Assembly: GCA_022576105.1 (NCBI GenBank) | Contig: JACZRM010000027.1 | Span: 1-11,989, forward strand | DNA: 11,989 nucleotides | Direction: 5' to 3' | From: Chloroflexota bacterium | Lineage (GTDB): Bacteria > Chloroflexota > Dehalococcoidia > UBA3495 | In this document: positions 1 to 11,989 of the stretch, piece by piece | How positions within the stretch are numbered: the first letter of the stretch is position 1 | Layout: each line of letters opens with the position of its first letter | Made by a program: the position numbers and the translations under genes | Notes under the pieces: model-generated | What the model was told of the DNA's origin: nothing | The model's input: the letters and a program-made list of their open reading frames with translations, nothing else | Databases searched by the model: none

Positions 1-354
1 CTGGGAAAGAGTTACCAGCCCCCCGATACCGCTGCCGACGATGACTCCAATGCGGAAAGGGTCTAATGACTCGATCTTGAGCCCGGCGTGCTGGCAGGCT
101 TCCTGGGCGGCAACCACGGCAAATTGCGCAAAGCGGTCCATGCGGCGGGCGTCTTTCCGGTCCAGGTAATTTTCCGGCTCGAAACCGTCAACTTCGGCGG
201 CGAATCTGGTTTCGAATCCCTCAGTATCGAAGGCTTTGATGAAATCTATTCCGGAGTGTCCCTGGATCAGTTCGGCCCAAGTAGTTGGGGCATCCAATCC
301 CAACGGACTGACTGCCCCGATACCAGTAATTACTACGTTCCGAGTTTCATTCAT
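1..354 (-). CDS. fabF: 3-oxoacyl-ACP synthase II (KAS II), N-terminal part, cut by window edge
   Basis: Condensing enzyme of fatty-acid elongation: it joins malonyl-ACP to a growing acyl-ACP in the cytoplasm. Only the first 118 codons lie in the window; the frame is open to base 1. The protein starts MNETRNVVITGIGAVSPLG, the classic KAS II N-terminus, and continues with a DARRMDRFAQ stretch and a GVIVGSGIGG segment near residues 105-114, all typical of the first thiolase-fold half. The catalytic Cys and both His residues lie outside the window, so activity cannot be judged. ATG at 354-352 fits the family start; a purine-rich GTGAG stretch sits about 10 nt upstream. It begins 29 bp downstream of the radical SAM gene on the same strand, so the two are probably co-transcribed. 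It is a paralogue of the complete fabF at 7517-8761, not a copy: the N-termini share motifs but differ at many positions. Family assignment is secure; the exact subtype (FabF or a specialised KAS) is less so. Confidence 0.9.
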   Translation of the reverse strand, partial: MNETRNVVITGIGAVSPLGLDAPTTWAELIQGHSGIDFIKAFDTEGFETRFAAEVDGFEPENYLDRKDARRMDRFAQFAVVAAQEACQHAGLKIESLDPFRIGVIVGSGIGGLVTLSQ

Positions 355-383
355 CTTGAATCGCTCACACCCTCAACACCACT

Positions 384-2183
384 TTATTCCTGCACGGGAG
401 TCGGTTGCCGCGACTCTACCGCTACTTTATTCAGCATTTCAGATAGTTCGTTAATTCGTTTTGAAACATTAATCGCCAGGTCTTTCTTACCGGCGGTCAG
501 GGGGTCGGACAGGCTGCGCAGCGACTCGGTGAGTTCGTTGACTCTGGTGCTGATGCCGTCGGCGAATTCCCGACGAGAGTTGGCCAGAGGCTGGGATACC
601 GAACGCAATGTCTCAGCGAGTTCATCGATCTGCTGGGAGAAATTCTCCCCAATTTCCTTGCCGGCTACTGAAACGGAATCGGACCAACTCTTCAGGGTCT
701 CACTGGCTTCACCGATGCGGGCATTAACCGAGTCGCCCAGGTCCTTTCCGGTGGCGGCAACGCGCAGGCGGTAGGAACGCAACATGCGGAAGATGCGCCC
801 GTAAAGTTTATCGATGGAAGTTAACTTGGCCGAGTAACGGTCGAACAAATCCCGGCTTTCCTGCATCGTCCACCTTTCATCGTAGTGAACCAACTGGCGG
901 CCGGTGTACAGGTGATAGGGCCGCATTTCTCCTTCCGGTAGGAGTTCACCAGCCTCGTTCAACGGCTGCAGGTCAACCCAGTTGGAGGTGGCCGGCAGCG
1001 GTGTTAGCCAGTTGGCGGTCTGGTACTTGCTGTACTGGGTGATCCAATCAGCCATTTGCATGATGGTCTCTTCAGTGTCGTAGGGCAGACCGATGATGGT
1101 CATTGCCACCACGGAAAAGTCCATTCCGTTCAGCGTGGTCAGGTTGCGTTCCATCTGGCCCGGATCCTGCCGCTTGTTGACCGCCTTCAGGCTCTCTGCG
1201 TTGTTGGACTCAATACCCAGGTAGAGCATCCGAATGTTGACGTCGAACATCGCTTGAGCCAACTCAGGGTCGTCGCCAATTTCGGCCCTAGCCTGGCAAA
1301 TTAGATACATATTTTCGGTATGTCCGCGCCAATTCTTCAGCCTTTCCAATCGCTCATTGCGAAACTTGACGGCCCGCAGCGGCGGGGGATGAAGGTCATC
1401 GGAGATAAACACGTTAAAATTGCCGTTGCGTGAGGTGTGAATCAACCCATCTTCAGCCATTTGCTGCAACTGTTGCAGGCGTTTGATCTCAATGCCCCGA
1501 TCAATCAGGCGATACCCCAAGAACTGCTGGATAACCTGGCAATAGGTGCATTTCTCGGTGCAGCCGCGCAACGTTTCCAGTACTCCGCCGGGCATGGGGT
1601 GGTCCGGGGTAAGGCCCTTGATGGAACGGAAGTCGGGCAGTTCCACAAACCCCGGGTCCACCAGTCCAGTGCGCTTGGTCTGCACCAGATGTCCGTCCCG
1701 GATGTAGCTGATGCCGGGTATCTTCTCAAGATAAGAATCAAGCAAGGGTGAATCTTTGTAGTCCACCAGAACATCACATAACTGCCCGATGATGTCCTCA
1801 CCCTCTCGATTGACGATCACGTCGAAGCCGCCCAACGCTATGGCCTCTTCTTGAAGCGGGCTCATTTGCGGGCCGCCGCCAATGCTAATCAGGTTGGGAT
1901 GGAATTCTTTGGCCTGCCGCGCCAGTTGGTAGCCCCGGGGAGCCTCGTTGATCAGCGCAGTCACCAGGAGAAGGTCCACGCCGTCCAGGTCTTTATCCGG
2001 GTCCATCAGGCCGCACCGGTCTTCAAACCAGATCTCGCGCTCATACATGTGTGGGCCTTCCCACTGGGCCAGGGCGCCGGATAGGAATAACATACCCTGC
2101 CTGGGAATGGCTATATATTCAAAGTTACCACCGGCAGAAGCCGGCTGTATCAGCACGACTCGCTTGATTTTTGATGTCGTCAT
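384..2183 (-). CDS. B12-binding-type radical SAM protein with C-terminal 29-residue repeats
   Basis: 599 residues. Residues about 1-150 look like the Rossmann-type cobalamin-binding domain that precedes many radical SAM domains, including a LISIGGGPQMSP segment at 98-109; the DxHxxG cobalamin-ligand motif is not seen, so cofactor binding, if any, would be base-off without the usual His. The radical SAM core follows, with the cluster motif CTEKCTYC (C208, C212, C215), a VFISDDL strand near 258-264 and YLGIESNN at 321-328. Residues 474-589 are four tandem 29-residue repeats predicted to be helical, an unusual tail for this family. Such enzymes perform methylation, cyclisation or other radical chemistry, often on lipids or cofactors; the substrate cannot be read from sequence. 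The gene lies immediately upstream of fabF, which suggests, as inference only, a lipid substrate. The start ATG (2183-2181) has GAGGG about 9 nt upstream and a TATAAT box about 65 nt upstream. Confidence 0.88.
   Translation of the reverse strand: MTTSKIKRVVLIQPASAGGNFEYIAIPRQGMLFLSGALAQWEGPHMYEREIWFEDRCGLMDPDKDLDGVDLLLVTALINEAPRGYQLARQAKEFHPNLISIGGGPQMSPLQEEAIALGGFDVIVNREGEDIIGQLCDVLVDYKDSPLLDSYLEKIPGISYIRDGHLVQTKRTGLVDPGFVELPDFRSIKGLTPDHPMPGGVLETLRGCTEKCTYCQVIQQFLGYRLIDRGIEIKRLQQLQQMAEDGLIHTSRNGNFNVFISDDLHPPPLRAVKFRNERLERLKNWRGHTENMYLICQARAEIGDDPELAQAMFDVNIRMLYLGIESNNAESLKAVNKRQDPGQMERNLTTLNGMDFSVVAMTIIGLPYDTEETIMQMADWITQYSKYQTANWLTPLPATSNWVDLQPLNEAGELLPEGEMRPYHLYTGRQLVHYDERWTMQESRDLFDRYSAKLTSIDKLYGRIFRMLRSYRLRVAATGKDLGDSVNARIGEASETLKSWSDSVSVAGKEIGENFSQQIDELAETLRSVSQPLANSRREFADGISTRVNELTESLRSLSDPLTAGKKDLAINVSKRINELSEMLNKVAVESRQPTPVQE
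417..764 (-). repeat. Four tandem 87-bp / 29-residue repeats in the radical SAM C-terminus
   Basis: Residues 474-502, 503-531, 532-560 and 561-589 of the radical SAM protein align without gaps as four 29-residue units. A shared pattern is G/R-K/R-[DE] near positions 6-8, a central R/Q-[IV]-x-E stretch near 16-19, and E-x-L-[RKN]-[SK]-x-[SA] near 22-28. Examples are ETLKSWSD, ETLRSVSQ, ESLRSLSD and EMLNKVAV. Charged and hydrophobic positions recur in a way that fits an amphipathic helix; 29 residues make close to eight turns. DNA identity between units is clearly lower than the protein pattern, so the repeat is old rather than a recent slippage product. Ten residues, ESRQPTPVQE, follow the last unit. 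Confidence 0.85.
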
Positions 2184-2248
2184 TATTGTTTCCCTCGCGA
2201 CTTACCAACAGCAATTGGCAGATTGCTTCCCCCCGATTAGCACGCAGT

Positions 2249-2254
2249 ATTATA
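2249..2254 (-). promoter_or_regulatory. Probable -10 box for the radical SAM-fabF operon
   Basis: Read on the minus strand, the sequence carries a perfect TATAAT preceded by an AT-rich spacer (GAAATTAATG). The -35 region at 17-bp spacing reads ATCTTT and matches poorly; a TTGCGT lies too close at 13 bp. Transcription would start about 60 nt before the radical SAM start codon. The match is suggestive rather than firm because the -35 is weak. Confidence 0.45.
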
Positions 2255-2418
2255 CATTAATTTCTTAACGCAAAGATACATAACCCTCCGCTCACTTCGA
2301 CCAGAACGCAACCAGTGAAAACGGCAGCGGTTTTGCCTTTGGTCAGCCGCCGAACGGCCCGGTTGGACCGGAAAGTCTTTGGCTCTTGTACCGACCGAAT
2401 TACCCTATGACAATCATG

Positions 2419-3612
2419 TTAGTTTTGTTCCAGGTATTGGCGAATCATCAGGGCGGCGGTGGCCCCTTCGCCGGTAGCCGACGCCACCTGCTTGGTGCTG
2501 CCGTCGCGGACGTCGCCAGCGGCAAAAACACCCTTCATGCTGGTCACCAATGAGTTATCGGTGGTGATGAATCCCCCTCGGTCCAAGTCTACTGTGCCCG
2601 AAAGGAATCCGGTATTGGGTTGGAGGCCAATGAACATGAACACACCGTCGGTTGGCAATTCTTCGATCTGCTCGGACTGGAGGTCCTTGACGACCACCGC
2701 AGAGAGCCGCCCGTTGCCTTTGAATTCTTCTACGGTGCTATGCAGGCGTACCTCTATTTCTGGATGCTCAGCAACCTTGTCCTGTAGTATTTGACTGGCG
2801 CCCAGGCGATCACCTCGTTCCAGGAGGACGATTTTCTTGACGAATCGGGTTAAGAATAGACTCTCTTGCAGGCCGCTGTTTCCGCCACCGATTACAACCA
2901 CTTCTTTGTCCCGGTAAAATGGGCCGTCGCAGGTGGCGCAGAAATGGATACCGGCGCCGATGAAATCATCTTCCCCGGGAGCGTGCAGCCTGCGATAGGT
3001 GGTGCCCAGACTGAGCAATAGAGCCGAGGCGCAATACTCGTCGCCCGACGCTGTTTTGATGTATCGGTACTGGCCATTAGACCCAACTTCAGTGATGTCC
3101 TGGGCCTGAAGAATTTCCACGCCGAAATTAACGGCTTGCGCTTTCATGCGATCGGTCAGTTCTGCGCCGCCGATCGGCTCTGGGAAACCCGGATAGTTCT
3201 CGATGGCTTCAGTGGTGCCTGCCTGGCCGCCCACCGCCGATCGGTCGACCAGCAGGGTTTCGATGCCTTCCCGCGCTGCGTAGAGTGCGGCGGTCAGCCC
3301 GGCTGGGCCAGCGCCGACGATGATCAAGTCATAAAATTCGCGCTCGGCTCTGGTCTGCAGACCGAGCTTGTCGGCCAGCTCGGCATTGGTGGGCTCAACC
3401 AGAATCGAACCATCTGGGAATAATATCGTCGGGATAATCTGCTTGTTGTTGTTTTGCTGCTTTACATATTCTTGAGCCTCGACATCTTGTTCAATGTCAA
3501 TGAACTGATAGGCAACCCGGTGCTCGCCCAAAAACGCCCTTGAGCGTTTGCAATCGGGACACCAGTGGGCACCGTAAAGTCTGATTTCGGACTGGGGTTG
3601 GGTTTGGGTCAT
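2419..3612 (-). CDS. Glutaredoxin-thioredoxin reductase fusion protein
   Basis: 397 residues in two domains. Residues 1-87 are a glutaredoxin-like fold with the redox pair in WCPDC (C18, C21) and the cis-proline loop at IIPT (P61). Residues 93-397 are a complete low-molecular-weight thioredoxin reductase: FAD-binding GAGPAG at 100-105, redox-active FCATCDGPFY (C225, C228), NADPH-binding GGGNSG at 242-247, and the second FAD motif GVFAAGDVRD at 361-370. A normal TrxR of about 310 residues is thus extended by an N-terminal redox domain, which may be its built-in electron acceptor, passing NADPH electrons to thiol partners in the cytoplasm. The start is well supported: AGGAGG lies 6 nt before the ATG. 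It stands alone, with 104 bp separating it from the upstream gene and 235 bp from the downstream gene. Some fusions of this type are annotated trxB; no symbol is given because the natural partner is unknown. Confidence 0.92.
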   Translation of the reverse strand: MTQTQPQSEIRLYGAHWCPDCKRSRAFLGEHRVAYQFIDIEQDVEAQEYVKQQNNNKQIIPTILFPDGSILVEPTNAELADKLGLQTRAEREFYDLIIVGAGPAGLTAALYAAREGIETLLVDRSAVGGQAGTTEAIENYPGFPEPIGGAELTDRMKAQAVNFGVEILQAQDITEVGSNGQYRYIKTASGDEYCASALLLSLGTTYRRLHAPGEDDFIGAGIHFCATCDGPFYRDKEVVVIGGGNSGLQESLFLTRFVKKIVLLERGDRLGASQILQDKVAEHPEIEVRLHSTVEEFKGNGRLSAVVVKDLQSEQIEELPTDGVFMFIGLQPNTGFLSGTVDLDRGGFITTDNSLVTSMKGVFAAGDVRDGSTKQVASATGEGATAALMIRQYLEQN

Positions 3613-3716
3613 CTAACGCCTCCTGAATCGTGCGCTGGTTTATTGCGATTTACGCAACCGTTTAGATGTATCCCATCCGTGTCGGGTGTACCCTCAGGAG
3701 TTTGGGCGGCGACGGG

Positions 3717-4655
3717 CTACCGAAAATGGGGGATGATTTCGCCGGCAATCGTCTCAATGTGCCGGGCGCGGTCTTCTCTGGGACAGGCTACGCTGAAAAT
3801 GATGTGGCGGGCGCCGGCGTCAATGTACTCCTGGAGGCGTTCAACACACTGCTCCGGCGTACCCAGCAGGCAATAATTCTTGACGACGTTGATAAAGTCT
3901 CCACTATACAGATAGCGGCCACCCAAGGCCTCGGCTGCTGCTTCCGCCGCCTCGGCTACGGTTGGGTAGATGGCAATGTAGGGAAAGAAGGCCCACTGGA
4001 AATCCTCCAGTCCCCGGCCTTCATCAGCAGCAAATCTGGTAATTTTAGCCACGCTGTCCCGGTACCGGTCTGGACTATAAAAGTAGGGCAGCCATCCATC
4101 GCCGTACCGCACCGCCCGGCGCATGGCGGCGTCGCGCCTACCGGCCACCCAAACCGGAGGGTGAGGCTGTTGAGTCGGCCCAGGGTTGATGCTGGCGTCC
4201 TGCAGTTGAAAGTGGCGGCCTTGGTAGTTGACTGATTCTCCCGTCCAGAGCTGGCGCAGGACATCCAGGCATTCATTGGTGCGGCGGCCCCGCTGTTTGA
4301 CGTCCAATCCAGCCGCCTCAAACTCTACTGGAAATTCTCCGCCCACGCCTACGCCCAGCGTAAGCCTTCCGCCGGAGGCGATGTCCAGGGTCGTGGCCTG
4401 CTTGGCCAGAACCAGGGGGTGGTAGAAAGGCGCCAACAGAATCGATGACAATATGCGAATCTTTTCGGTGGCTCCGGCGGCCACCCCCAAGAGGGGCAGC
4501 ACCGCCTGAGTCGGCCCGGGAGGACTGCCTCGCATAAAATGCTCACCGGCGGCAATGTACTCAAAACCCAGGTCCTCCAGCCAGCGGGCTTCAGCAACAA
4601 TCTCAGCAGCGCCGAGAACCGTGGTGGAGCCAAAATGTAAATCGGATGGAGTCAT
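3717..4655 (-). CDS. Luciferase-like (LLM class) flavin- or F420-dependent oxidoreductase
   Basis: 312 residues, the usual size for a bacterial-luciferase-like TIM barrel. Diagnostic stretches are ARWLEDLGFEYIAAGEHF (23-40), the strand and loop RILSSILLAPFYHPLVLAKQ (67-86) and DIASGGRLTLGVGVGGEFPVE (from 91), which is the hallmark phosphate/cofactor-binding region of this family. PVWVAGRR (167-174) and GDGWLPYF (185-192) follow the family pattern. Members use FMN or coenzyme F420 to oxidise or reduce small organic substrates; which one applies here is not visible, although many actinobacterial and Chloroflexota members use F420. The start ATG has TGAGGGT about 10 nt upstream. The gene diverges from the SDR-folC-fabF operon across a 428-bp spacer. 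No substrate is suggested by the neighbours. Confidence 0.88.
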   Translation of the reverse strand: MTPSDLHFGSTTVLGAAEIVAEARWLEDLGFEYIAAGEHFMRGSPPGPTQAVLPLLGVAAGATEKIRILSSILLAPFYHPLVLAKQATTLDIASGGRLTLGVGVGGEFPVEFEAAGLDVKQRGRRTNECLDVLRQLWTGESVNYQGRHFQLQDASINPGPTQQPHPPVWVAGRRDAAMRRAVRYGDGWLPYFYSPDRYRDSVAKITRFAADEGRGLEDFQWAFFPYIAIYPTVAEAAEAAAEALGGRYLYSGDFINVVKNYCLLGTPEQCVERLQEYIDAGARHIIFSVACPREDRARHIETIAGEIIPHFR

Positions 4656-4694
4656 TTTCGAGCAACCCTCAGAGTCTCTGACAAAATTACTAAC

Positions 4695-4722
4695 TGCTCA
4701 TCTAAATTTATAGGAGTGAGCA
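4695..4722. promoter_or_regulatory. Inverted repeat TGCTCA-N16-TGAGCA over a possible -10 box
   Basis: TGCTCA at 4695-4700 and TGAGCA at 4717-4722 are exact inverted copies whose centres are 22 bp apart, two helical turns. Between them, on the minus strand, lies TATAAA (4712-4707), a possible -10 box for the luciferase-like gene that begins at 4655. No convincing -35 was found. The arrangement would suit a dimeric repressor site, but six-base arms can occur by chance. Confidence 0.3.
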
Positions 4723-4726
4723 ATCT

Positions 4727-4799
4727 AAAATCCCCCAGCCCCCTTGCAAAGATGGCAATCGACTTTCCCCCTTTCGTAAAGGGCGGCTGAATGGGATTT
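4727..4799. repeat. Imperfect palindromic intergenic element with AAATCCC...GGGATTT ends
   Basis: The left end, AAAATCCCCCAGCCCCCTT, and the right end, read in reverse as AAATCCCATTCAGCCGCCCT, are imperfect inverted copies, giving a foldable element of about 73 bp with an internal CCCCCTTTCGTAAAGGG hairpin. C-rich 'AAATCCCCC' palindromes of this kind are common non-coding dispersed repeats in several bacterial phyla. Only one copy is present here, so its status as a genome-wide repeat is inferred from recall. It lies in the 428-bp divergent spacer and encodes no credible protein. Confidence 0.55.
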
Positions 4800-4896
4800 C
4801 CTTGCTCCTCAGGGCAACTTGAGTTTCAATTTGTCAGGTGTTCTTATCGCCGGCTTAATCTTAGTGAGAAATACCTGCTCTAGGCGACCGGCGCTG

Positions 4897-4920
4897 GGCC
4901 ATTGTCTGGCCATTGTCTGG
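4897..4920. repeat. Two tandem copies of GGCCATTGTCT
   Basis: GGCCATTGTCT occurs at 4897-4907 and again directly at 4908-4918, followed by GG, an exact 11-bp period. It lies about 160-190 bp before the SDR start codon. The GCCATTG core recurs in the second set of 11-bp repeats at 4995-5026. Confidence 0.7.
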
Positions 4921-4980
4921 ATGGAAATCAATATTAACAGTTGCGCTCCAGGGTATCCACTGATAATGCCGCCAGGTTTT

Positions 4981-4989
4981 TGTTACACT
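4981..4989 (+). promoter_or_regulatory. Possible extended -10 promoter for the SDR-folC-fabF operon
   Basis: TGTTACACT contains a TG-n-TACACT extended -10 arrangement. The -35 at 17-bp spacing (TGATAA) is poor, as is usual for extended -10 promoters. Start would be near 4996, about 90 nt before the SDR ATG and inside the 11-bp repeat array, which could then be an operator. This is a weak call made on sequence pattern only. Confidence 0.3.
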
Positions 4990-4994
4990 ACTAT

Positions 4995-5026
4995 CAAGCT
5001 ATTGGCAAGCCATTGGCAAGGGTTGG
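4995..5026. repeat. Three 11-bp tandem repeats, CAAGCYATTGG type
   Basis: CAAGCTATTGG (4995-5005), CAAGCCATTGG (5006-5016) and a decayed CAAGGGTTGG (5017-5026) follow head to tail with an 11-bp period, one helical turn. They lie just downstream of the possible -10 box at 4984-4989, where an operator would be expected, 58-89 bp before the SDR start codon. Confidence 0.65.
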
Positions 5027-5083
5027 ACCCTGAAGAATCTGCCTAGCAAGTGTAGCCAGCCAGCGGGAGCAATAAAAAACTAG

Positions 5084-6037
5084 ATGGTGGTTTTGGTAAC
5101 TGGTTCCACCGGGTTCTTGGGCCGTCGGGTAGTGCATGAACTGTTGACTCATAGCCACCAGGTACGTTGCCTGGTGCATACTCCGGGTCATGAGCGCATT
5201 TTTGCGCCCCGTTCCGTCGACGTTCAGTATGGCAGCGTTTCCGATCCCGACGCTCTGGCCAGTGCCTGCCAGGGTGTCGAGTCTGTGATCCATCTGGTAG
5301 CGATCATCCAGCAGCGAAAAGGTGCGACCTTCGATTCAGTCAATCGACAGGGCACCGCCAATGTGGTTGCCGCCGCCAAAGATGCGGGCGGTGTCAAGGA
5401 ATTTGTCCAGATTAGCGCAATCGGAGCCAGCGGCAATCGCAGTTATCCGTATTTGCACAGCAAATGGGAAGGGGAGCAGGAGGTCATCAAAAGTGGTCTT
5501 CCCTACACCATATTAAGGTCATCCCTCATGTTTGGTGAGGGTGACGAGTTCACCAATTCGCTGGCCGCCCTGGTGCGGGTTTCCCCCCTGGTGCCCGTAA
5601 TCGGCACTGGCCGTAACCGGTTGCAGCCAATCGACGTGAATGACGTGGCCAGGTGTATCGTGCTGGCCCTGGACCGGGACGACCTAAAAGGCAGGACCAT
5701 TGAGATCGGCGGGCCGGAACAACTTAGTTACAATGAAATAGTGGGTCTGCTGACCCGAACCCTGGGTCGGCCTCGCATCAGGTTTCATGTTCATCCCTGG
5801 CTGGTATGGCCCAATGTGGCGCTGATGCAACGATTTTTACCCAAGCCGCCGATCAATACTGAAGAGCTCCGAATGCTGTCGATTCGCAATGTGGCTGAAC
5901 TGGAAACAGTGGAAGAGGTTTTTGGATTTGCTCCTCGTACAATTGCGGGCAACATCGACTACGTGAAAAAGATCAGTTTCTCCGACGCCCTCAAGACTAT
6001 GTTGGGCTTCATGCCCGCCAGTATCAGAGATCATTAG
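5084..6037 (+). CDS. NDUFA9-like atypical SDR (NAD(P)-dependent epimerase/dehydratase family)
   Basis: 317 residues. The Rossmann motif GSTGFLGRRVV (7-17) matches the TGxxGxxG pattern of extended and atypical SDRs; GVESVIHLVAI (64-74) and SAIGAS (111-116) are the following strands, and the YxxxK pair is YLHSK (Y123, K127). The QPIDVNDVARCIVLAL stretch (181-196) is typical of the NDUFA9/complex-I 39-kDa-like and NmrA-like subgroup. Catalysis is plausible because Y and K are kept, but many members are assembly factors or sensors binding NAD(P)H, and no substrate can be named. The ATG at 5084 sits only 3 nt after a TAG in another frame; the nearest purine-rich site, GGGAG, is about 15 nt upstream, so initiation may be weak or use the GTG codon immediately after. 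folC begins 15 bp after its stop, so the two are probably one transcript. Confidence 0.85.
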   Translation: MVVLVTGSTGFLGRRVVHELLTHSHQVRCLVHTPGHERIFAPRSVDVQYGSVSDPDALASACQGVESVIHLVAIIQQRKGATFDSVNRQGTANVVAAAKDAGGVKEFVQISAIGASGNRSYPYLHSKWEGEQEVIKSGLPYTILRSSLMFGEGDEFTNSLAALVRVSPLVPVIGTGRNRLQPIDVNDVARCIVLALDRDDLKGRTIEIGGPEQLSYNEIVGLLTRTLGRPRIRFHVHPWLVWPNVALMQRFLPKPPINTEELRMLSIRNVAELETVEEVFGFAPRTIAGNIDYVKKISFSDALKTMLGFMPASIRDH

Positions 6038-6052
6038 CGGCGTGAGATCGAG

Positions 6053-7438
6053 TTGAACTACCAAGAATCCATTGATCGACTGCTCTCCCTGGTGGACCAC
6101 GAACGTATACAGCCGGTACTGCCCCGGCAGAAACGTATCTACGACCTTGGCCGGATGGAATTGCTGCTGGAGCGTCTGGGTAGTCCCCAACTGGCCACTC
6201 CCACAATTCACATCGCCGGCACCAAGGGTAAGGGCAGCACCGCTGCAATGTGCGATGCAGCTTTGCGCGCCGCAGGATTCCGCACCGGATTCTATTCCTC
6301 TCCCCATCTGCATAATTTCCGGGAGCGCATTCGCCTGAATTCTCAACCTCTTGAGGAGGGGAAATTCGCCCAGCTGGTCGCGGACCTGTGGCCCCATCAA
6401 GCCTGGCTGAGTGATAATAGCGACTTGGGGCCGGTGTCACTGTTTGAGTTTATGACGGCAATGGCTTTTCAGTGTTTCAAGAACGAACAGGCCGAATTCC
6501 AGACCATTGAAGTGGGGTTGGGAGGCCGGTTGGATGCCACCAATGTGCTGGCGCCCCAGGTCTGTGTGATTACCTCAATCAGCCTGGACCACACCGCTAT
6601 TTTGGGCGACACGCTGGAGCAAATTGCCGGAGAGAAGGCCGGGATTATCCAGCCTGGAGTCACCGTTGTTGTTGCCCCACAGACCCCGGAGGCAATGTCG
6701 TCAATATTGTCGGTGTGCCGGCAGAGAAAGGCCAATCCCGTACTGGTGGGTGAGGATATTACCTGGACGCCAATGGGTCGAGACACCCGCGCTCAGTGGT
6801 TTACGGTAAAGGGGCGCTGCGCTGACTATGAAATCAACCTCCCGTTGCTGGGCAGCTACCAAATGGAGAACGCAGCCACCGCAATTGGGGCATTGGAAGT
6901 CCTGCAAGCGCAGGGGAACTTGATCCCGGTTGAGACCATAATTCGGGGTTTCGGCCTGGTAGAATGGCCCTGCCGAATGGAAGCGCTGTCCAGGTCACCG
7001 TTGGTGGTAGCCGATGGAGCGCACAATGCCTATTCTATGGATTCACTGTTGCAGTCCCTGCCCCAATATTTCGACTATGCCCGGATGGTGGTTATCGTCG
7101 GGTTTTCCCGGGACAAAAATGTCAACGAGATGGTAAAGCTTTTGTCCCGAGACAAGCCGGCGGTGGTGGTCACCCGTTCCCGGCATCCCAGGTCGGTTCC
7201 CCCCAAGGAGTTGGCTAAATTGTTTAAAGCGCAGGGATTGTCTGAAGTCGTAGAAGCAACTTCAGTGAAAGAAGCGTTAGACTGGGCTAAGGAACTGGCC
7301 GGGCCAGGTGGTTTGGTGCTGGGCGCTGGTTCGTTGTTTGTGGCGGCGGAGGTTCGAGAGGCGTTGTTGGGTATTGAGCCCGAGATCTATCCGGATTTGC
7401 TGCCGCCAGATTTACGAGCTTCCGGAACCGGTGTTTAA
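6053..7438 (+). CDS. folC: Bifunctional folylpolyglutamate synthase / dihydrofolate synthase
   Basis: 461 residues, Mur-ligase-like, using ATP to add glutamate to folates (and to dihydropteroate in bifunctional forms). The P-loop is IAGTKGKGSTAAM (54-66); SSPHLHNFRERIRLN (82-96) is the omega-loop substrate region; EVGLGGRLDATN (153-164) and SLDHTAILGDTLEQIAGEKAGI (177-198) carry metal-binding residues and the EKAGI lysine thought to be carbamylated in relatives; the C-terminal domain has VVADGAHN (318-325). The usual W-P-G-R-[ML]-E motif reads WPCRME (305-310), an atypical cysteine. The start is TTG at 6053: no in-frame ATG occurs before codon 35, which would remove conserved N-terminal sequence, and only a weak GAG-rich site precedes it. 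It lies 15 bp after the SDR gene and 78 bp before fabF. Confidence 0.95.
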   Translation: MNYQESIDRLLSLVDHERIQPVLPRQKRIYDLGRMELLLERLGSPQLATPTIHIAGTKGKGSTAAMCDAALRAAGFRTGFYSSPHLHNFRERIRLNSQPLEEGKFAQLVADLWPHQAWLSDNSDLGPVSLFEFMTAMAFQCFKNEQAEFQTIEVGLGGRLDATNVLAPQVCVITSISLDHTAILGDTLEQIAGEKAGIIQPGVTVVVAPQTPEAMSSILSVCRQRKANPVLVGEDITWTPMGRDTRAQWFTVKGRCADYEINLPLLGSYQMENAATAIGALEVLQAQGNLIPVETIIRGFGLVEWPCRMEALSRSPLVVADGAHNAYSMDSLLQSLPQYFDYARMVVIVGFSRDKNVNEMVKLLSRDKPAVVVTRSRHPRSVPPKELAKLFKAQGLSEVVEATSVKEALDWAKELAGPGGLVLGAGSLFVAAEVREALLGIEPEIYPDLLPPDLRASGTGV

Positions 7439-7516
7439 CTTGACGGACGAATTGGCTATTTCGACGAGAACTGCAATGATTAATAAGAATGAGGGCAAAG
7501 GGGATTGGGGCTAGGC

Positions 7517-8761
7517 ATGGATCGTATACGGGTAGTGGTAACCGGTATGGGGGCCATCACTCCCCTGGGGCAAACTCCAGAACTCTTCTGGAAAAACCTG
7601 GTGGCCGGTAAATCGGGCATCGGGCCGATGACACTGTGCGACCCGACCGGTTATCCGTGTCGCATCGCCGGGGAAGTCCGGGACTTTGACCCAGTTCAGT
7701 ACATACCGGCGCGGGAAGCCCGCCGAATGGCCCGCTTTTCCCAAATGGCGGTTGCCGCCGCTATGTCCGCCGTGGAGTCGGCTAGACTAAACATATCGAA
7801 GGAAGACTCCTTCCGGGTAGGCGTGGTCCTGGGAAACGGAAATGGTGGGTTTCCCACCCTGGAGGAGAACTGCCGCATCCTGGCCCAGCGGGGCGGTATG
7901 CGTATGTCCCCCTTCTTCTTCCCCATGATTTTGCCCAACATGGCTGCGGCCAACATCAGCCACTACTCCGGAGCAAGGGGCTACAACTCCACCGTCAGCA
8001 CTGCCTGCGCCTCGTCGAATCAGGCCATGGGCGAAGCATTGTCCGCTATCCGTCAGGGTCTGGCCGATGTGGTATTGGCCGGTGGCGCCGAGGCTGGCAT
8101 CAGCCAGCTTGGGCTGTCTGGATTCGCGGTGATGCGGGCGCTGAGCACGCGGAATGAAGAACCTGAGAGAGCGAGCCGCCCTTTCGATGCACAGCGGGAT
8201 GGCTTCGTGCCTTCTGAGGGCGCCACAATTCTGGTGTTGGAGAGTCTGGAACATGCCCTGAACCGAGGGGCTGATGTGCTGGTGGAACTGGCTGGGTTTG
8301 GCTGCACCGCCGACGCGGGCCATCTGGTCCAGCCAGAGGAAACCGGAACTGCCGCCGCCCATGCGATGAAGTTGGCCCTGGACAATGCCGGCGTGTCCAC
8401 CGGGGAAGTAGACTATATCAACGCTCACGGCACGTCTACTCCACTGAATGATGCGGTGGAGACGATGGTTATCAAGCGATTATTTGGCGACCTGGCCCCC
8501 AAAATACCGATCAGCTCAACCAAGTCAATGGTTGGTCATTCGTTGGGAGCCTCCGGTTCGTTGGAGGCCGCTGCCTGTGTCAAGACCATCACTGAGGGCA
8601 CCATTCACCCAACGGTGAACTATGAAGTGCCGGACCCGGAATGCGATCTGGACTATGTGCCCAACCACGCGCGGAAGCAAGACGTCAGAGTCGTGCTGTC
8701 CAACGCCTTTGGATTTGGCGGCCAGAATGCGTGTCTGGTGTTCAAGAAATTTGAAGATTAG
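7517..8761 (+). CDS. fabF: 3-oxoacyl-ACP synthase II (KAS II), complete
   Basis: 414 residues, full family length, catalysing malonyl-ACP condensation in fatty-acid elongation. From the ATG at 7517 the catalytic residues fall at C164 (STACASSNQAMGEAL), H304 (INAHGTSTPLND), K336 and H341 (STKSMVGHSLGASGSLEA), almost exactly the spacing of the well-studied E. coli enzyme; the C-terminal NAFGFGGQNA loop is intact. A TTG at 7505 would add four residues, but the ATG has GGGG 6 nt before it and gives the normal MDRIRVVVTGMGAITPLG start. It follows folC by 78 bp on the same strand. Because another KAS II gene lies at the window's left end, the genome carries at least two paralogues, possibly with different chain-length or substrate roles. 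No acpP gene is adjacent. Confidence 0.95.
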   Translation: MDRIRVVVTGMGAITPLGQTPELFWKNLVAGKSGIGPMTLCDPTGYPCRIAGEVRDFDPVQYIPAREARRMARFSQMAVAAAMSAVESARLNISKEDSFRVGVVLGNGNGGFPTLEENCRILAQRGGMRMSPFFFPMILPNMAAANISHYSGARGYNSTVSTACASSNQAMGEALSAIRQGLADVVLAGGAEAGISQLGLSGFAVMRALSTRNEEPERASRPFDAQRDGFVPSEGATILVLESLEHALNRGADVLVELAGFGCTADAGHLVQPEETGTAAAHAMKLALDNAGVSTGEVDYINAHGTSTPLNDAVETMVIKRLFGDLAPKIPISSTKSMVGHSLGASGSLEAAACVKTITEGTIHPTVNYEVPDPECDLDYVPNHARKQDVRVVLSNAFGFGGQNACLVFKKFED

Positions 8762-8805
8762 GGCAGATTTGTAGAGAAATTCCTCTGTTATTCTCTGAGG
8801 GGGAA

Positions 8806-8825
8806 TGCCCTTCGACAGGCTCAGG
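8806..8825. repeat. Dispersed repeat copy 1 (TGCCCTTCGACAGGCTCAGG)
   Basis: A 20-bp sequence found again exactly at 8895-8914. Copy 1 continues into GCGAACGGG, so that GCCCT and AGGGC can pair around an 11-base loop and TTCG can pair with CGAA. From recall, variants of CCCTTCGACAGGCTCAGGGCGAAC are widespread intergenic repeats in Chloroflexota and other bacteria. Antisense translation gives HPFALSLSKG, a known false-peptide signature of this repeat. Confidence 0.8.
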
Positions 8826-8879
8826 GCGAACGGGTGTTTACTCCCTCGCCCCGACCTCATCTGCTACTCGGCCACCCCT

Positions 8880-8896
8880 CTCCCAAAATGGGAGTG
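8880..8896. repeat. Hairpin CTCCCA-AAA-TGGGAG between the two dispersed-repeat copies
   Basis: A perfect 6-bp stem with a three-A loop lies just before repeat copy 2. No T-run follows on either strand, so it is not a standard intrinsic terminator. It probably belongs to the same composite intergenic repeat, since C-rich CCCTCTCCC palindromes often accompany such elements. The surrounding 198 bp (8762-8959) contains no credible gene. Confidence 0.5.
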
Positions 8897-8914
8897 CCCT
8901 TCGACAGGCTCAGG
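8895..8914. repeat. Dispersed repeat copy 2 (TGCCCTTCGACAGGCTCAGG)
   Basis: Exact match to 8806-8825 over 20 bp, offset by 89 bp in direct orientation. It diverges right after (ACAGGT instead of GCGAAC), so the closing side of the hairpin seen in copy 1 is lost. It appears to be a truncated or decayed copy. Confidence 0.8.
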
Positions 8915-8947
8915 ACAGGTATTGTTAGGTATTTTTAGATCTGGTTT

Positions 8948-8976
8948 GGCCCGGTTCCCTTAAACCGCAACCGGCC
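8948..8976 (-). terminator. Hairpin spanning the SWIM gene stop codon
   Basis: On the minus strand GGCCGGTT and AACCGG(G)CC pair as an 8-bp stem with one bulged G, around a 12-base loop containing the TAA stop of the SWIM gene. There is no T-rich tail directly after it, so it is a poor match to an intrinsic terminator. It may simply stabilise the 3' end of the message. Confidence 0.25.
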
Positions 8977-9220
8977 CCGACGCTTTGCTGCCACTGGCCA
9001 ATACTTCGGACAGCATACGCTGCAACGCCATGGTATGGCTGCAAGTCTGCTGGTTCAGAAAGAAATGACACTGGCAATCCCAGTTGCCGGTGTCAAATGT
9101 CACTTCGTAGGTATCGTGGATGCCGAGGAAGGAGGCCTTGAATGTGGTGATGCTGACCCTTTCTTTTTCCTCAGCGTATCTCCTGGCCTTGTCAACCTTC
9201 CCAATGAAGCTGGAATTCAT
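8960..9220 (-). CDS. Small SWIM zinc-finger protein
   Basis: 86 residues. The motif CQCHFFLNQQTCSH gives C49, C51, C60 and H62, the CxCx(n)CxH signature of the SWIM zinc finger, followed by a short helix TMALQRML. Residues 1-45 form a short N-terminal part, with GKVDKARRYAEEKERV and a beta-rich TYEVTFDTGNWDC stretch leading into the finger. SWIM domains bind DNA or proteins in varied settings; small stand-alone versions of this form occur in Chloroflexota from recall, with no established role. The start is firm: GGAGGTG lies 4-5 nt before the ATG, and a TTGACC/TAAACT promoter precedes it. It is transcribed divergently from alaS with 269 bp between the start codons. Confidence 0.8.
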   Translation of the reverse strand: MNSSFIGKVDKARRYAEEKERVSITTFKASFLGIHDTYEVTFDTGNWDCQCHFFLNQQTCSHTMALQRMLSEVLASGSKASGPVAV

Positions 9221-9249
9221 CTACACCTCCAAAACTTCCCTGTGGTGAG

Positions 9250-9278
9250 AGTTTACGAAAGGTACTGACAAAGGTCAA
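9250..9278 (-). promoter_or_regulatory. Promoter of the SWIM zinc-finger gene
   Basis: On the minus strand TTGACC (9278-9273) and TAAACT (9255-9250) are separated by exactly 17 bp, a good sigma-70-type pair (five of six and four of six matches). Start would be near 9243, giving a leader of about 23 nt that contains the strong GGAGGTG ribosome-binding site. Confidence 0.6.
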
Positions 9279-9397
9279 GACGTGCGCTTCAAGTCGGGGC
9301 CTGGCTATTCACCCGGACTTTCGGTGCGCTTACGTCTGCCAGCACCTTCGACCAATCGTCCCGCTAAGATAAGCGGCGAGAAATCCTCCCTCTGAGA

Positions 9398-9427
9398 TTG
9401 ACGCTCCCTTTCTCGGTGGCTTACAAT
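9398..9427 (+). promoter_or_regulatory. Promoter of alaS
   Basis: TTGACG (9398-9403) and TACAAT (9422-9427) are 18 bp apart, each matching the sigma-70 consensus in five of six positions. Start would be about 9434, leaving a leader of about 55 nt before the ATG at 9490. That leader is too short for a T-box and shows no T-box consensus; it contains only a weak TGCAA/TTGCA stem (9451-9455 with 9467-9471). No strong ribosome-binding site precedes the ATG. Confidence 0.6.
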
Positions 9428-9489
9428 CCCTCCGAATGTAAACTAACCGATGCAACCAAACCGACCTTGCAGCTTGTGGATAGCCTTAG

Positions 9490-11154
9490 ATGAACGGCGA
9501 CCAGATACGGAACTCCTTTATTCAGTACTTTGAGAGCAAGGGGCATTTGCACATGCCCAGCGCCTCACTGATTCCAGCCGGCGACCCCACCCTGCTGTTT
9601 ACCAGCGCCGGCATGGTGCCCTTCAAGCCCTTTTTCATGGGGGAGCAGACACCGCCCTCCCAGCGCCTGACCAGCCACCAGAAAAGTTTCCGCACCACCG
9701 ATATCGATGAGGTGGGTGACCACAAACACCTGACCTTCTTCGAGATGTTGGGCAATTTCAGCATTGGCGACTACTTCAAAAAGGACGCGATTTCCTTCGC
9801 CTGGGAATTGGTTACCGACCGATTCAAGCTGGAGCCGGAGCGTATTTTCGTCACCATACACTTGGATGACGACGAGGCGTACCAGCTCTGGCGGGAGGAT
9901 ATCGGCGTCCCACCGGAGCGCATCTATCGTTACGGTGACGGGGACAACTGGTGGGGCCCGGCCGGCAATGAAGGCCCCACCGGACCGTGCTCAGAAATCC
10001 ACTATGATGGCGGCGCTGAAAAGGGCTGTGGGGCAATGGTCCCACCCGACCAGTTGACCGAACAGTTCCGCCAAGAACGGGATGGCGCTGATCCCCAAGC
10101 GGTACCCGGGTGCCACCCCAACTGTGATTGCGAACGGTTCGTAGAGTTGTGGAACCTGGTGTTCATGCAGTTTTACCAGGACCCCCAGCGCAATCGCACT
10201 CCATTGCCCGCTCCCAGCGTGGACACGGGCATGGGTCTGGAGCGAATGGCCGCTGTTCTGCAGGGCAAGTCCAACATTTACGAAACCGACCTGTTCGCGC
10301 CCATCGTCCAGCGAGTCTGTGAGCTTTCCGCCAAGACCTACGGCAGCGACAATGACACGGACTATGCGATCCGCGTGGTTGCCGAGCACGCCCGGGCCGC
10401 TTGTTTCCTGATCGGCGATGGCGTGGTGCCCGGCAACGCCGGTCGGGGCTATGTGCTGCGCCGCATCATCCGGCGGGCCATCCGGCATGGGCGGCGGTTG
10501 GGTTTGGAGCAGGTGTTTCTCACCCAGGTGGCGGAGGTAGCGCTGGAACTCTTTCAGGATACCTACCGAGAATTGCTGGAGAACCAGGCCTTTATAGTTC
10601 GAGTAATTGGGCTGGAAGAGGAACGGTTTGGGCAGACTTTTGAGCGTGGCATAGCAATACTTAACGGGATGATTAATTACCGATTAGCTCATCGAGGAGC
10701 TATACCTCAGGTAATTGATTTTGCTCGTCAGTTTAATCCCGCTCCAGACAATGCAGCGTCTGTTCTTGAAATACTGATTGCACGACCTGAGTTTCAGGGC
10801 TTAATTATCAAGCTCAATACTCAGGAGCAACTATTTAAAAAGGGGATAGATTCTAAAGGTGTAACACTTGGAGTTTACGCCCCTTTTACTATAGAGATAA
10901 AGAAGTCTAAAGGCCAACCGACCAACCATATAACACTAAAGGATACGGGCGATCTTTACAACACATGGACGGTAAAGATGGTAAAAGGGGATATCGTAAT
11001 AGATGCCAATTTTATAAAAGACGGCGAAGACATTATAGAGAAAAACAGATTGAGCGAATTTGTTACAGGATTAACCGAAGAAAGTTTACAAATATTAATA
11101 GATGAAATTAAAATTAAAACTCCTGAACTTGTGGAGAGTCTTCTTTTTGCCTGA
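9490..11154 (+). CDS. alaS: Alanyl-tRNA synthetase, N-terminal part only, running in frame into foreign sequence
   Basis: AlaS attaches alanine to tRNA-Ala and normally has about 870-900 residues. This frame is 554 long and is AlaS only to about residue 390-404. That part is convincing: FIQYFESKGHLHMPSASLIPAGDPTLLFTSAGM (10-42), the class II motif-2 region with HQKSFRTTDIDEVGDHKHLTFFEMLGNFSIGDY (63-95), WNLVFMQFYQ (221-230) and motif 3 APSVDTGMGLERMAAVLQG (241-259), then GRGYVLRRIIRRAIRHGRRLG (318-338). Four cysteines (C180, C208, C212, C214) sit in an insert before WNLVF. Missing are the DTYGFP segment that should follow, the editing domain with its HxxxH zinc site, and the C-Ala domain. After about 10,660-10,800 the DNA becomes AT-rich and the protein is phage-like. 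The catalytic core is also incomplete, so a chimeric assembly or a disrupted gene is more likely than a functional short AlaS. Confidence 0.85.
   Translation: MNGDQIRNSFIQYFESKGHLHMPSASLIPAGDPTLLFTSAGMVPFKPFFMGEQTPPSQRLTSHQKSFRTTDIDEVGDHKHLTFFEMLGNFSIGDYFKKDAISFAWELVTDRFKLEPERIFVTIHLDDDEAYQLWREDIGVPPERIYRYGDGDNWWGPAGNEGPTGPCSEIHYDGGAEKGCGAMVPPDQLTEQFRQERDGADPQAVPGCHPNCDCERFVELWNLVFMQFYQDPQRNRTPLPAPSVDTGMGLERMAAVLQGKSNIYETDLFAPIVQRVCELSAKTYGSDNDTDYAIRVVAEHARAACFLIGDGVVPGNAGRGYVLRRIIRRAIRHGRRLGLEQVFLTQVAEVALELFQDTYRELLENQAFIVRVIGLEEERFGQTFERGIAILNGMINYRLAHRGAIPQVIDFARQFNPAPDNAASVLEILIARPEFQGLIIKLNTQEQLFKKGIDSKGVTLGVYAPFTIEIKKSKGQPTNHITLKDTGDLYNTWTVKMVKGDIVIDANFIKDGEDIIEKNRLSEFVTGLTEESLQILIDEIKIKTPELVESLLFA
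10700..11154 (+). other. Phage-like coding segment fused to the alaS fragment (5' boundary approximate)
   Basis: Residues about 404-554 of the alaS-initiated frame have no AlaS similarity. The stretch KLNTQEQLFKKGIDSKGVTL (441-460), then YAPFTIEIKKSKGQPTNHIT and LKDTGDLYNTW, resembles from memory a conserved protein of unknown role in the structural gene cassettes of phages of Bacteroidota. Codon choice is AT-rich and lysine-rich, unlike the GC-rich alaS part. The native start of this protein is not visible; it would lie left of the junction or at the in-frame ATG near 10,669. The stop is TGA at 11152-11154, and the next phage-like frame overlaps it by 53 bp, as is common in phage gene clusters. 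Confidence 0.55.
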
Positions 11155-11701
11155 GTTGTACGATGATCTCCATACGATGCCTGTGGTGTTGTGGTGGAAA
11201 ATACTGAAAGAAATAGACGCATTAGGACTAGCCAAACCAGACATTAAAAGTAATTGGCTAATTATTCATGTATTAGAATCATTTATCAAATGTGTTGTAT
11301 TTGTTTTTATCAACGAGCAAAGAGCCATAGCTAACTATTGCAATAAACAAAGGGAAAAACTAAACGACGATTTTACAAACTTCTTCGGAGTACAAAAAAG
11401 GCAAGCGAAATACTTAAAACTACTATGTAAACATCAAGAGTACGTCGTAATGTATGCGGTTACTAAGAGCCATATATGGACAACTCGAAGGCTGTACGTT
11501 GAAATAGAATTAGAAGAGTACAGGCCAAAAGGTCAAAAGGAAATCAATGAATATGAGACACTACGTAATGTCTCAATATCCCTAGACGGGGCAAGTATGA
11601 ACCCGCAAACAATGAGCGTTATCCAATACTATTCAGATCAAAATTTAGCGATCAAAAGGAATAAGCAAGCAAAAGCAAACCTAGCAAAGAATAAAAAGTA
11701 A
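11102..11701 (+). CDS. Phage-like protein of unknown function
   Basis: 199 residues, rich in Lys and Asn codons ending in A or T. The N-terminal stretch FFLPELYDDLHTMPVVLWWKIL (14-35) recalls small proteins that follow the KGID-type protein in phages of Bacteroidota; this is from memory and was not searched. The rest is mostly helical in appearance, with a basic C-terminus ending NKQAKANLAKNKK and no recognised catalytic motif. The frame start at 11102 overlaps the previous gene by 53 bp and has no clear ribosome-binding site; an ATG at 11177 is possible but would remove the conserved-looking FFLPELYDDLHT. Its TAA overlaps the ATG of the next frame (TAATG, 11699-11703), a translational-coupling arrangement typical of phage structural clusters. 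Confidence 0.6.
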   Translation: MKLKLKLLNLWRVFFLPELYDDLHTMPVVLWWKILKEIDALGLAKPDIKSNWLIIHVLESFIKCVVFVFINEQRAIANYCNKQREKLNDDFTNFFGVQKRQAKYLKLLCKHQEYVVMYAVTKSHIWTTRRLYVEIELEEYRPKGQKEINEYETLRNVSISLDGASMNPQTMSVIQYYSDQNLAIKRNKQAKANLAKNKK

Positions 11702-11989
11702 TGGGAGTTATTAAAAATAGTGACGTATTCGGCCCTGACTTATTTACTAAGGAAGCTAAAGACGCAAAGACATTAAACGACGCCCTAAACATTGTAGAGC
11801 AGTCACTAAAGGACATTGCTAAACTTTCCGTTAAGGCGTTTAAAGGAGTTAATCCAAAGACAGCAGAAGATATTAAGATAAAGATTGGTACTGCGACCCA
11901 CGACTCCCAGGAGCACAAAATGGAAATTCGCGGGAGAGACCTTATCTCGGGACTCCCAAAGAATATTACCATTTCTTCCAATGAGGTAT
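11701..11989 (+). CDS. Chimeric partial ORF: phage-like N-terminus joined to an MreB segment
   Basis: The frame runs 96 codons to the window edge. Residues 1-52, MGVIKNSDVFGPDLF onward with KTLNDALNIVEQSLKDIAKL (23-42), look like the helical start of a large phage protein such as a tape measure (tentative). From residue 53, KTAEDIKIKIGTA and then MEIRGRDLISGLPKNITISS is an unmistakable segment of the rod-shape actin homologue MreB, corresponding to the region near two thirds of that protein, where relatives read TAExIKIxIG and EVRGRDLVSGLP. MreB normally begins with an ATP-binding loop far upstream, absent here. The change of identity falls near 11,857, where GC content also rises. The frame starts one base inside the preceding stop codon. 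The fusion is probably not a real gene. Confidence 0.7.
   Translation, partial: MGVIKNSDVFGPDLFTKEAKDAKTLNDALNIVEQSLKDIAKLSVKAFKGVNPKTAEDIKIKIGTATHDSQEHKMEIRGRDLISGLPKNITISSNEV
11857..11988 (+). pseudogene. mreB: mreB internal fragment (rod-shape actin homologue)
   Basis: Forty-four codons encode KTAEDIKIKIGTATHDSQEH followed by KMEIRGRDLISGLPKN and ITISSNEV, the subdomain II part of MreB. MreB polymerises under the membrane and guides lateral wall synthesis. Nothing upstream belongs to MreB; the fragment simply begins, then leaves the window. The wording (EDIKIKIG, MEIRGRDL) is nearest, from memory, to MreB of Firmicutes or candidate-phylum bacteria, but this is not a taxonomic assignment. 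Confidence 0.8.

Follow-up and report, generated by a model that had tools for sequence, protein, structure and literature searches.

The fused gene near the end of this stretch of DNA, in which alaS passes in frame into a phage tail gene, is almost certainly an artefact and not a biological gene. We analyzed the whole stretch of 11,989 nucleotides (the window), which on comparison with other genomes and proteins is made up of three unrelated pieces: SAR202 Chloroflexota, a tailed phage, and a Patescibacteria-like mreB. The best explanation overall, and one that we hold with high confidence, is that the contig was mis-joined by an assembler at short words common to unrelated sources. The features on which this is based are as follows.

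1..10770, no strand assigned: piece 1, SAR202-type Chloroflexota DNA, collinear with L001 (blastn)
9490..10770, + strand: alaS, 5' part only, with the catalytic domain and the start of the linker before DTYGFP (residues 1-427; PF01411, TIGR00344, L001 alignment)
10641..10749, + strand: native AT-richer AlaS linker, the first GC step (GC; the DNA alignment with L001 continues through it)
10750..10770, + strand: join 1, the 21-bp shared word NAASVLE (residues 421-427; comparison with L001 and P0001)
10750..11154, + strand: piece 2a, phage tail-type gene without its own first residues (P0001, 99% identity; phrog_6195)
11102..11701, + strand: piece 2b, small phage gene whose start lies within 2a, an overlap also seen in L081, L082 and L091 (40-57% identity to these)
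11701..11877, + strand: piece 2c, start of a phage tape-measure gene (42.9% identity, residues 1-70, to the L081 gene at 6916-10305)
11857..11877, + strand: join 2, the shared word KTAEDIK, with TAEDIK at 11860-11877 (comparison with P0171 and L081)
11860..11989, + strand: piece 3, part of mreB beginning at about residue 200 and cut off by the window end (PF06723, solved MreB chains, P0171)

The fused gene is a single open frame of 554 amino acids at 9490-11154 on the + strand. Residues 5-397 match PF01411 (Pfam; E 3.9e-135) and also TIGR00344 alaS, the latter at 453.5 bits, which is slightly below the cut-off of 457.05, as expected because the gene is truncated. Solved AlaS structures match the frame up to about residue 397. 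Both PF01411 and the solved structures place the catalytic domain in the frame; the editing and C-terminal domains that a complete gene would have are not present, AlaS being limited to residues 1-427.

AlaS residues 1-367, used as the query against genome contigs, gave 80 loci, the best of which, with 90% protein identity, is L001, SAR202 cluster bacterium Casp-Chloro-G3. By blastn, six blocks of L001 and the window are in the same order, from 20 to 10770 of the window, at 72-81% DNA identity, and the final block runs straight through the low-GC stretch and ends at 10770. A seventh match, on the minus strand, probably involves the second ketosynthase gene. In L001, alaS has the same linker (ILNGMINYRLAHRGAI...PDNAAAVLE), followed by DTYGFP and the later domains, in an uninterrupted open frame of 988 codons. 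The gene stays open for at least 840 codons in 74 of the 80 loci, 69 of them with DTYG and 5 without it (892-1012 codons); of the remaining loci, five run off the contig and one was not located by our script.

Several other genes of the window gave side observations. The gene at 2419-3612 (-) encodes a glutaredoxin/mycoredoxin-like domain (residues 9-82) and a thioredoxin reductase (93-393) in one frame, and there is a homologous block in L001. The gene at 384-2183 (-) encodes a B12-binding radical SAM protein whose C-terminal region is a long series of LxESLRSLS-like heptad repeats; apolipoprotein-type models match it weakly, and none of the NCBIfam families scores above cut-off. A small protein of 86 aa (8960-9220, -) without a Pfam match has a CxC...CxH pattern that resembles a SWIM zinc finger. 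Two beta-ketoacyl synthase (fabF-type) genes are found in opposite orientation in one 9-kb stretch, at 1-354 (-) and 7505-8761 (+); the second scores above the TIGR03150 fabF cut-off, and the first was assigned from its sequence only.

The first-pass annotation had described alaS as passing in frame into phage-like sequence, with the frame open across the join. That much stands, the PF01411 match giving way in the same frame to the phage tail family phrog_6195 (E 5.2e-18), although the second join at 11857-11877 was missed. Its three GC counts are exact: 38/60 at 10081-10140, 26/60 at 10621-10680, and 19/60 at 10801-10860. It placed the end of AlaS at residue 390-404 and took the fall in GC at 10621-10680 as part of the change, and neither position holds up, since L001 DNA aligns to 10770 and the join is at residues 421-427 (10750-10770). 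GC over 10641-10750 is 43.6% in the window; the equivalent stretch of L001 has 45.9%, compared with 60.0% in the alaS preceding it. Because L001 shows the same AT-richer linker, the first GC step is native to alaS. We therefore rejected the step at 10621 as a join, given that L001 has the same step and the DNA alignment continues through it.

The length of the AlaS linker was measured from the LEEERF-type motif (VxxLEEERF) to DTYGFP in the listed AlaS relatives, which are the best 120 of 8000 scored. It is 46-70 residues in 55/120 and 96-140 in 50/120, and the other 15 are without the motif as written and were left unscored. The linker in the window is of the long kind (96-140 residues). Many of the SAR202-type relatives have a long, highly variable, AT-richer AlaS linker (10641-10749 in the window, 11152-11439 in L001).

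At join 1 the change of parent is sharp. Compared with L001 AlaS, the window has the same residue at 35/40 positions before NAASVLE, 6/7 inside it, and 1/30 after it, whereas compared with P0001 the counts are 1/15 before, 7/7 inside, and 30/30 after. Among free-standing proteins, P0001 is the closest to the phage part (149 aa, 99% identity over 85% of the query) and begins MFEAIRKVTGNMQKINAASVLEIL, its own different start. This change between L001 and P0001 places the switch inside 10750-10770, a stretch in which the L001 bases are the same as those of the window at 18/21 positions.

From residue 398 on, phrog_6195 is the one phage tail family that the fused frame matches. With this part of the frame, tblastn found 79 phage records, every one with less than 60% identity. 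Seventy-seven of these are named for Flavobacterium (32), Bacteroides (31), Parabacteroides (6), Croceibacter (4), and, with one record each, Alistipes, Elizabethkingia, Leeuwenhoekiella, and Tenacibaculum, all genera that we take to be Bacteroidota; the other two are a Pseudanabaena phage and a record with no host in its name. Scans of viral contigs were unproductive when queried with single phage proteins, and an alignment of P0001 and its relatives as the query gave 80 viral contigs.

In L081, a tail gene (6001-6453, phrog_6195) is followed by a small overlapping gene (6392-6919) and by a gene of 1129 codons (6916-10305), which is a tape-measure gene according to phrog_1533 (E 1e-40) and TIGR01760 (E 6.4e-27). 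The window has the tail, small, and tape-measure genes of a tailed-phage structural module in this same order, and the first two of them, tail and small, are also present in L082 and L091. The small gene at 11102-11701, for which we found no PHROG match and no match in the phages collection, is 40.5% identical to its counterpart in L081, 51% in L082, and 57% in L091. Because the gene order matches that of L081, 10750-11877 is a plain cut-out of a tail module.

At the second join (11857-11877), the phage tape-measure gene passes in frame into mreB. The ORF starting at 11701 matches PF06723 at its residues 51-96 (profile 197-242, E 6.2e-12), and solved MreB chains match it as well; the complete actin-like fold is not present, as profile positions 197-242 are all that precede the window end. 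The padded mreB fragment, searched alone, found 978 proteins, the best being P0171 (335 aa), with 93% identity over 91% of the fragment. Eight of the 120 listed MreB relatives name an organism, and in 8/8 it belongs to the Patescibacteria (Nealsonbacteria, Paceibacterota, Parcubacteria, Patescibacteria). The window agrees with P0171 MreB at 1/40 residues before TAEDIK, 6/6 inside it, and 34/37 after it, and with the L081 tape measure, which is distant and the sole comparison available, at 23/53 before, 3/6 inside, and 1/37 after. This change of parent around TAEDIK places the switch inside approximately 11857-11877. TAEDIK itself is found in 26/120 of the listed MreB proteins.

We considered SAR202 as the owner of the mreB fragment and rejected it. 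The L001 genome has one weaker MreB-family match, at 35.2 bits (above the Pfam cut-off) and profile positions 143-304. When the whole L001 genome was searched with 10560-11989 of the window, the match was confined to 10561-10770; the lack of any DNA match past 10770 is supporting only, as that genome may be incomplete.

The analysis thus gives three sources, both join positions, shared words in the same phase, and a join that is absent from everything searched. The nearest relatives differ across each join, and each of them is whole elsewhere. A short common word is seen at the residue level at both joins, as well as in the bases of L001 at join 1, and genes are cut mid-way at both joins. Two exact DNA words spanning the joins were not found in the viral-contig scans. 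Because the exact parent DNA was not found, the lengths of the shared words are estimates from relatives.

A smallest k of 21 is usual in metagenome assemblers. A short-read assembler most likely crossed from SAR202 alaS to the phage tail gene by way of a common word of approximately 21 bp, and left the phage tape-measure gene for the Patescibacteria-like mreB at a second word of similar length. Two unrelated joins within 1.1 kb, both mid-gene and at words of approximately 20 bp, between three sources from different kinds of organism, are the expected product of a de Bruijn assembler that uses a small word size on thin coverage. A review (PMC7299287) describes common k-mers as often linking species in assembly graphs, with possible chimeric contigs as a result, and IDBA, SPAdes, and similar assemblers as beginning at small k. 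Under blind joining, the chance that both joins would be in frame is about 1 in 9, which counts against a chimera, but joining at common coding words favours in-frame joins. The frame stays open because, for each common word, the two parents happen to share one reading phase.

Based on the sequences, we believe that the joins were probably caused by assembly rather than by a template switch or laboratory ligation. A laboratory chimera, in which template switching during amplification or ligation during library preparation joined three molecules, lies for us somewhere between very improbable and simply unlikely. Template switching would likewise leave short common words at both joins, and no feature here tells such a product from an assembly error. 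However, a single molecule would have to undergo two independent events within 1.1 kb, and it would be assembled only if it dominated the coverage. The first-pass annotation had preferred an assembly or amplification chimera, and our results support and strengthen this reading: the 1.1 kb after the first join was cut from mid-way through a phage structural module and ends in the mreB of another organism.

Its alternative, a phage insertion, which here would mean a Bacteroidota-type phage integrated into the alaS of a SAR202 cell, is not supported, and we consider it extremely improbable. The DNA after join 1 is indeed phage and the frame is open, but the phage piece is cut within a gene on either side, on the far side in the mreB of a third organism, with neither intact phage ends nor an integrase at its boundaries, and no integrase or transposase was found among the reported ORFs tested. 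The related phages are from Bacteroidota hosts (77/79 records). In addition, when 201 genomes from the phylum of L001's organism were searched with the protein of 10681-11151, the phage part was found in none of them (0/201); the single match was to L001's own genome, at residues 1-30 of the query, which are AlaS linker.

We give equally little credence to a phage in which captured fragments of host alaS and mreB form genuine fusion genes. Both joins are in frame, as such a phage would have them, but the 10.7 kb preceding the phage part hold ordinary chromosome-like genes and are collinear with a bacterial genome, the close phage relatives have a plain tail gene, and the four tape-measure words tested are absent from all 120 of the listed MreB relatives. 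A fusion of AlaS to a phage tail protein was likewise found in 0/120 of the listed AlaS relatives, and no 6-residue words are common to AlaS P0051 and 50 tail proteins. One candidate fusion, P0165, was rejected because the match consists of one 6-residue word close to the protein start and is due to chance. That the fusion is physically real, as a SAR202 phage or mobile piece whose in-frame alaS and mreB junctions arose by short-homology recombination of three genomes, seems to us barely conceivable.

A contig mis-joined by the assembler remains our preferred explanation, and it has consequences for how such records are used. An open frame across a join, or as here across two in a row, is not proof of a real contig. 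Gene-fusion surveys and the assignment of phage hosts from metagenome contigs would be misled by this record, in which SAR202 would seem to be the host of a Bacteroidota-type phage and mreB would be linked to a phage. Composition alone misplaces such joins, and the first GC step here is native sequence.

Residues 1-397 of the window copy fit AlaS (PF01411, TIGR00344), and the linker is like that of the SAR202 relatives to residue 427, but the copy is without the remaining tRNA-binding part and all later domains. The C-terminal 133 residues of the fused frame share 99% identity with P0001, relatives of which match the phrog_6195 tail family, while AlaS sequence takes the place of the tail gene's own first residues (approximately 15 in P0001). 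The final 40 or so residues of the window match MreB (PF06723) from about residue 200, and the start of a tape-measure gene stands in place of MreB's own first 200 residues. As a whole, the window is like the inter-species chimeric contigs of de Bruijn metagenome assembly, in which unrelated genomes are joined at short common words with abrupt shifts of composition and nearest relative; it differs from them in having two joins within 1.1 kb, which is unusual, and both of these with an open frame.
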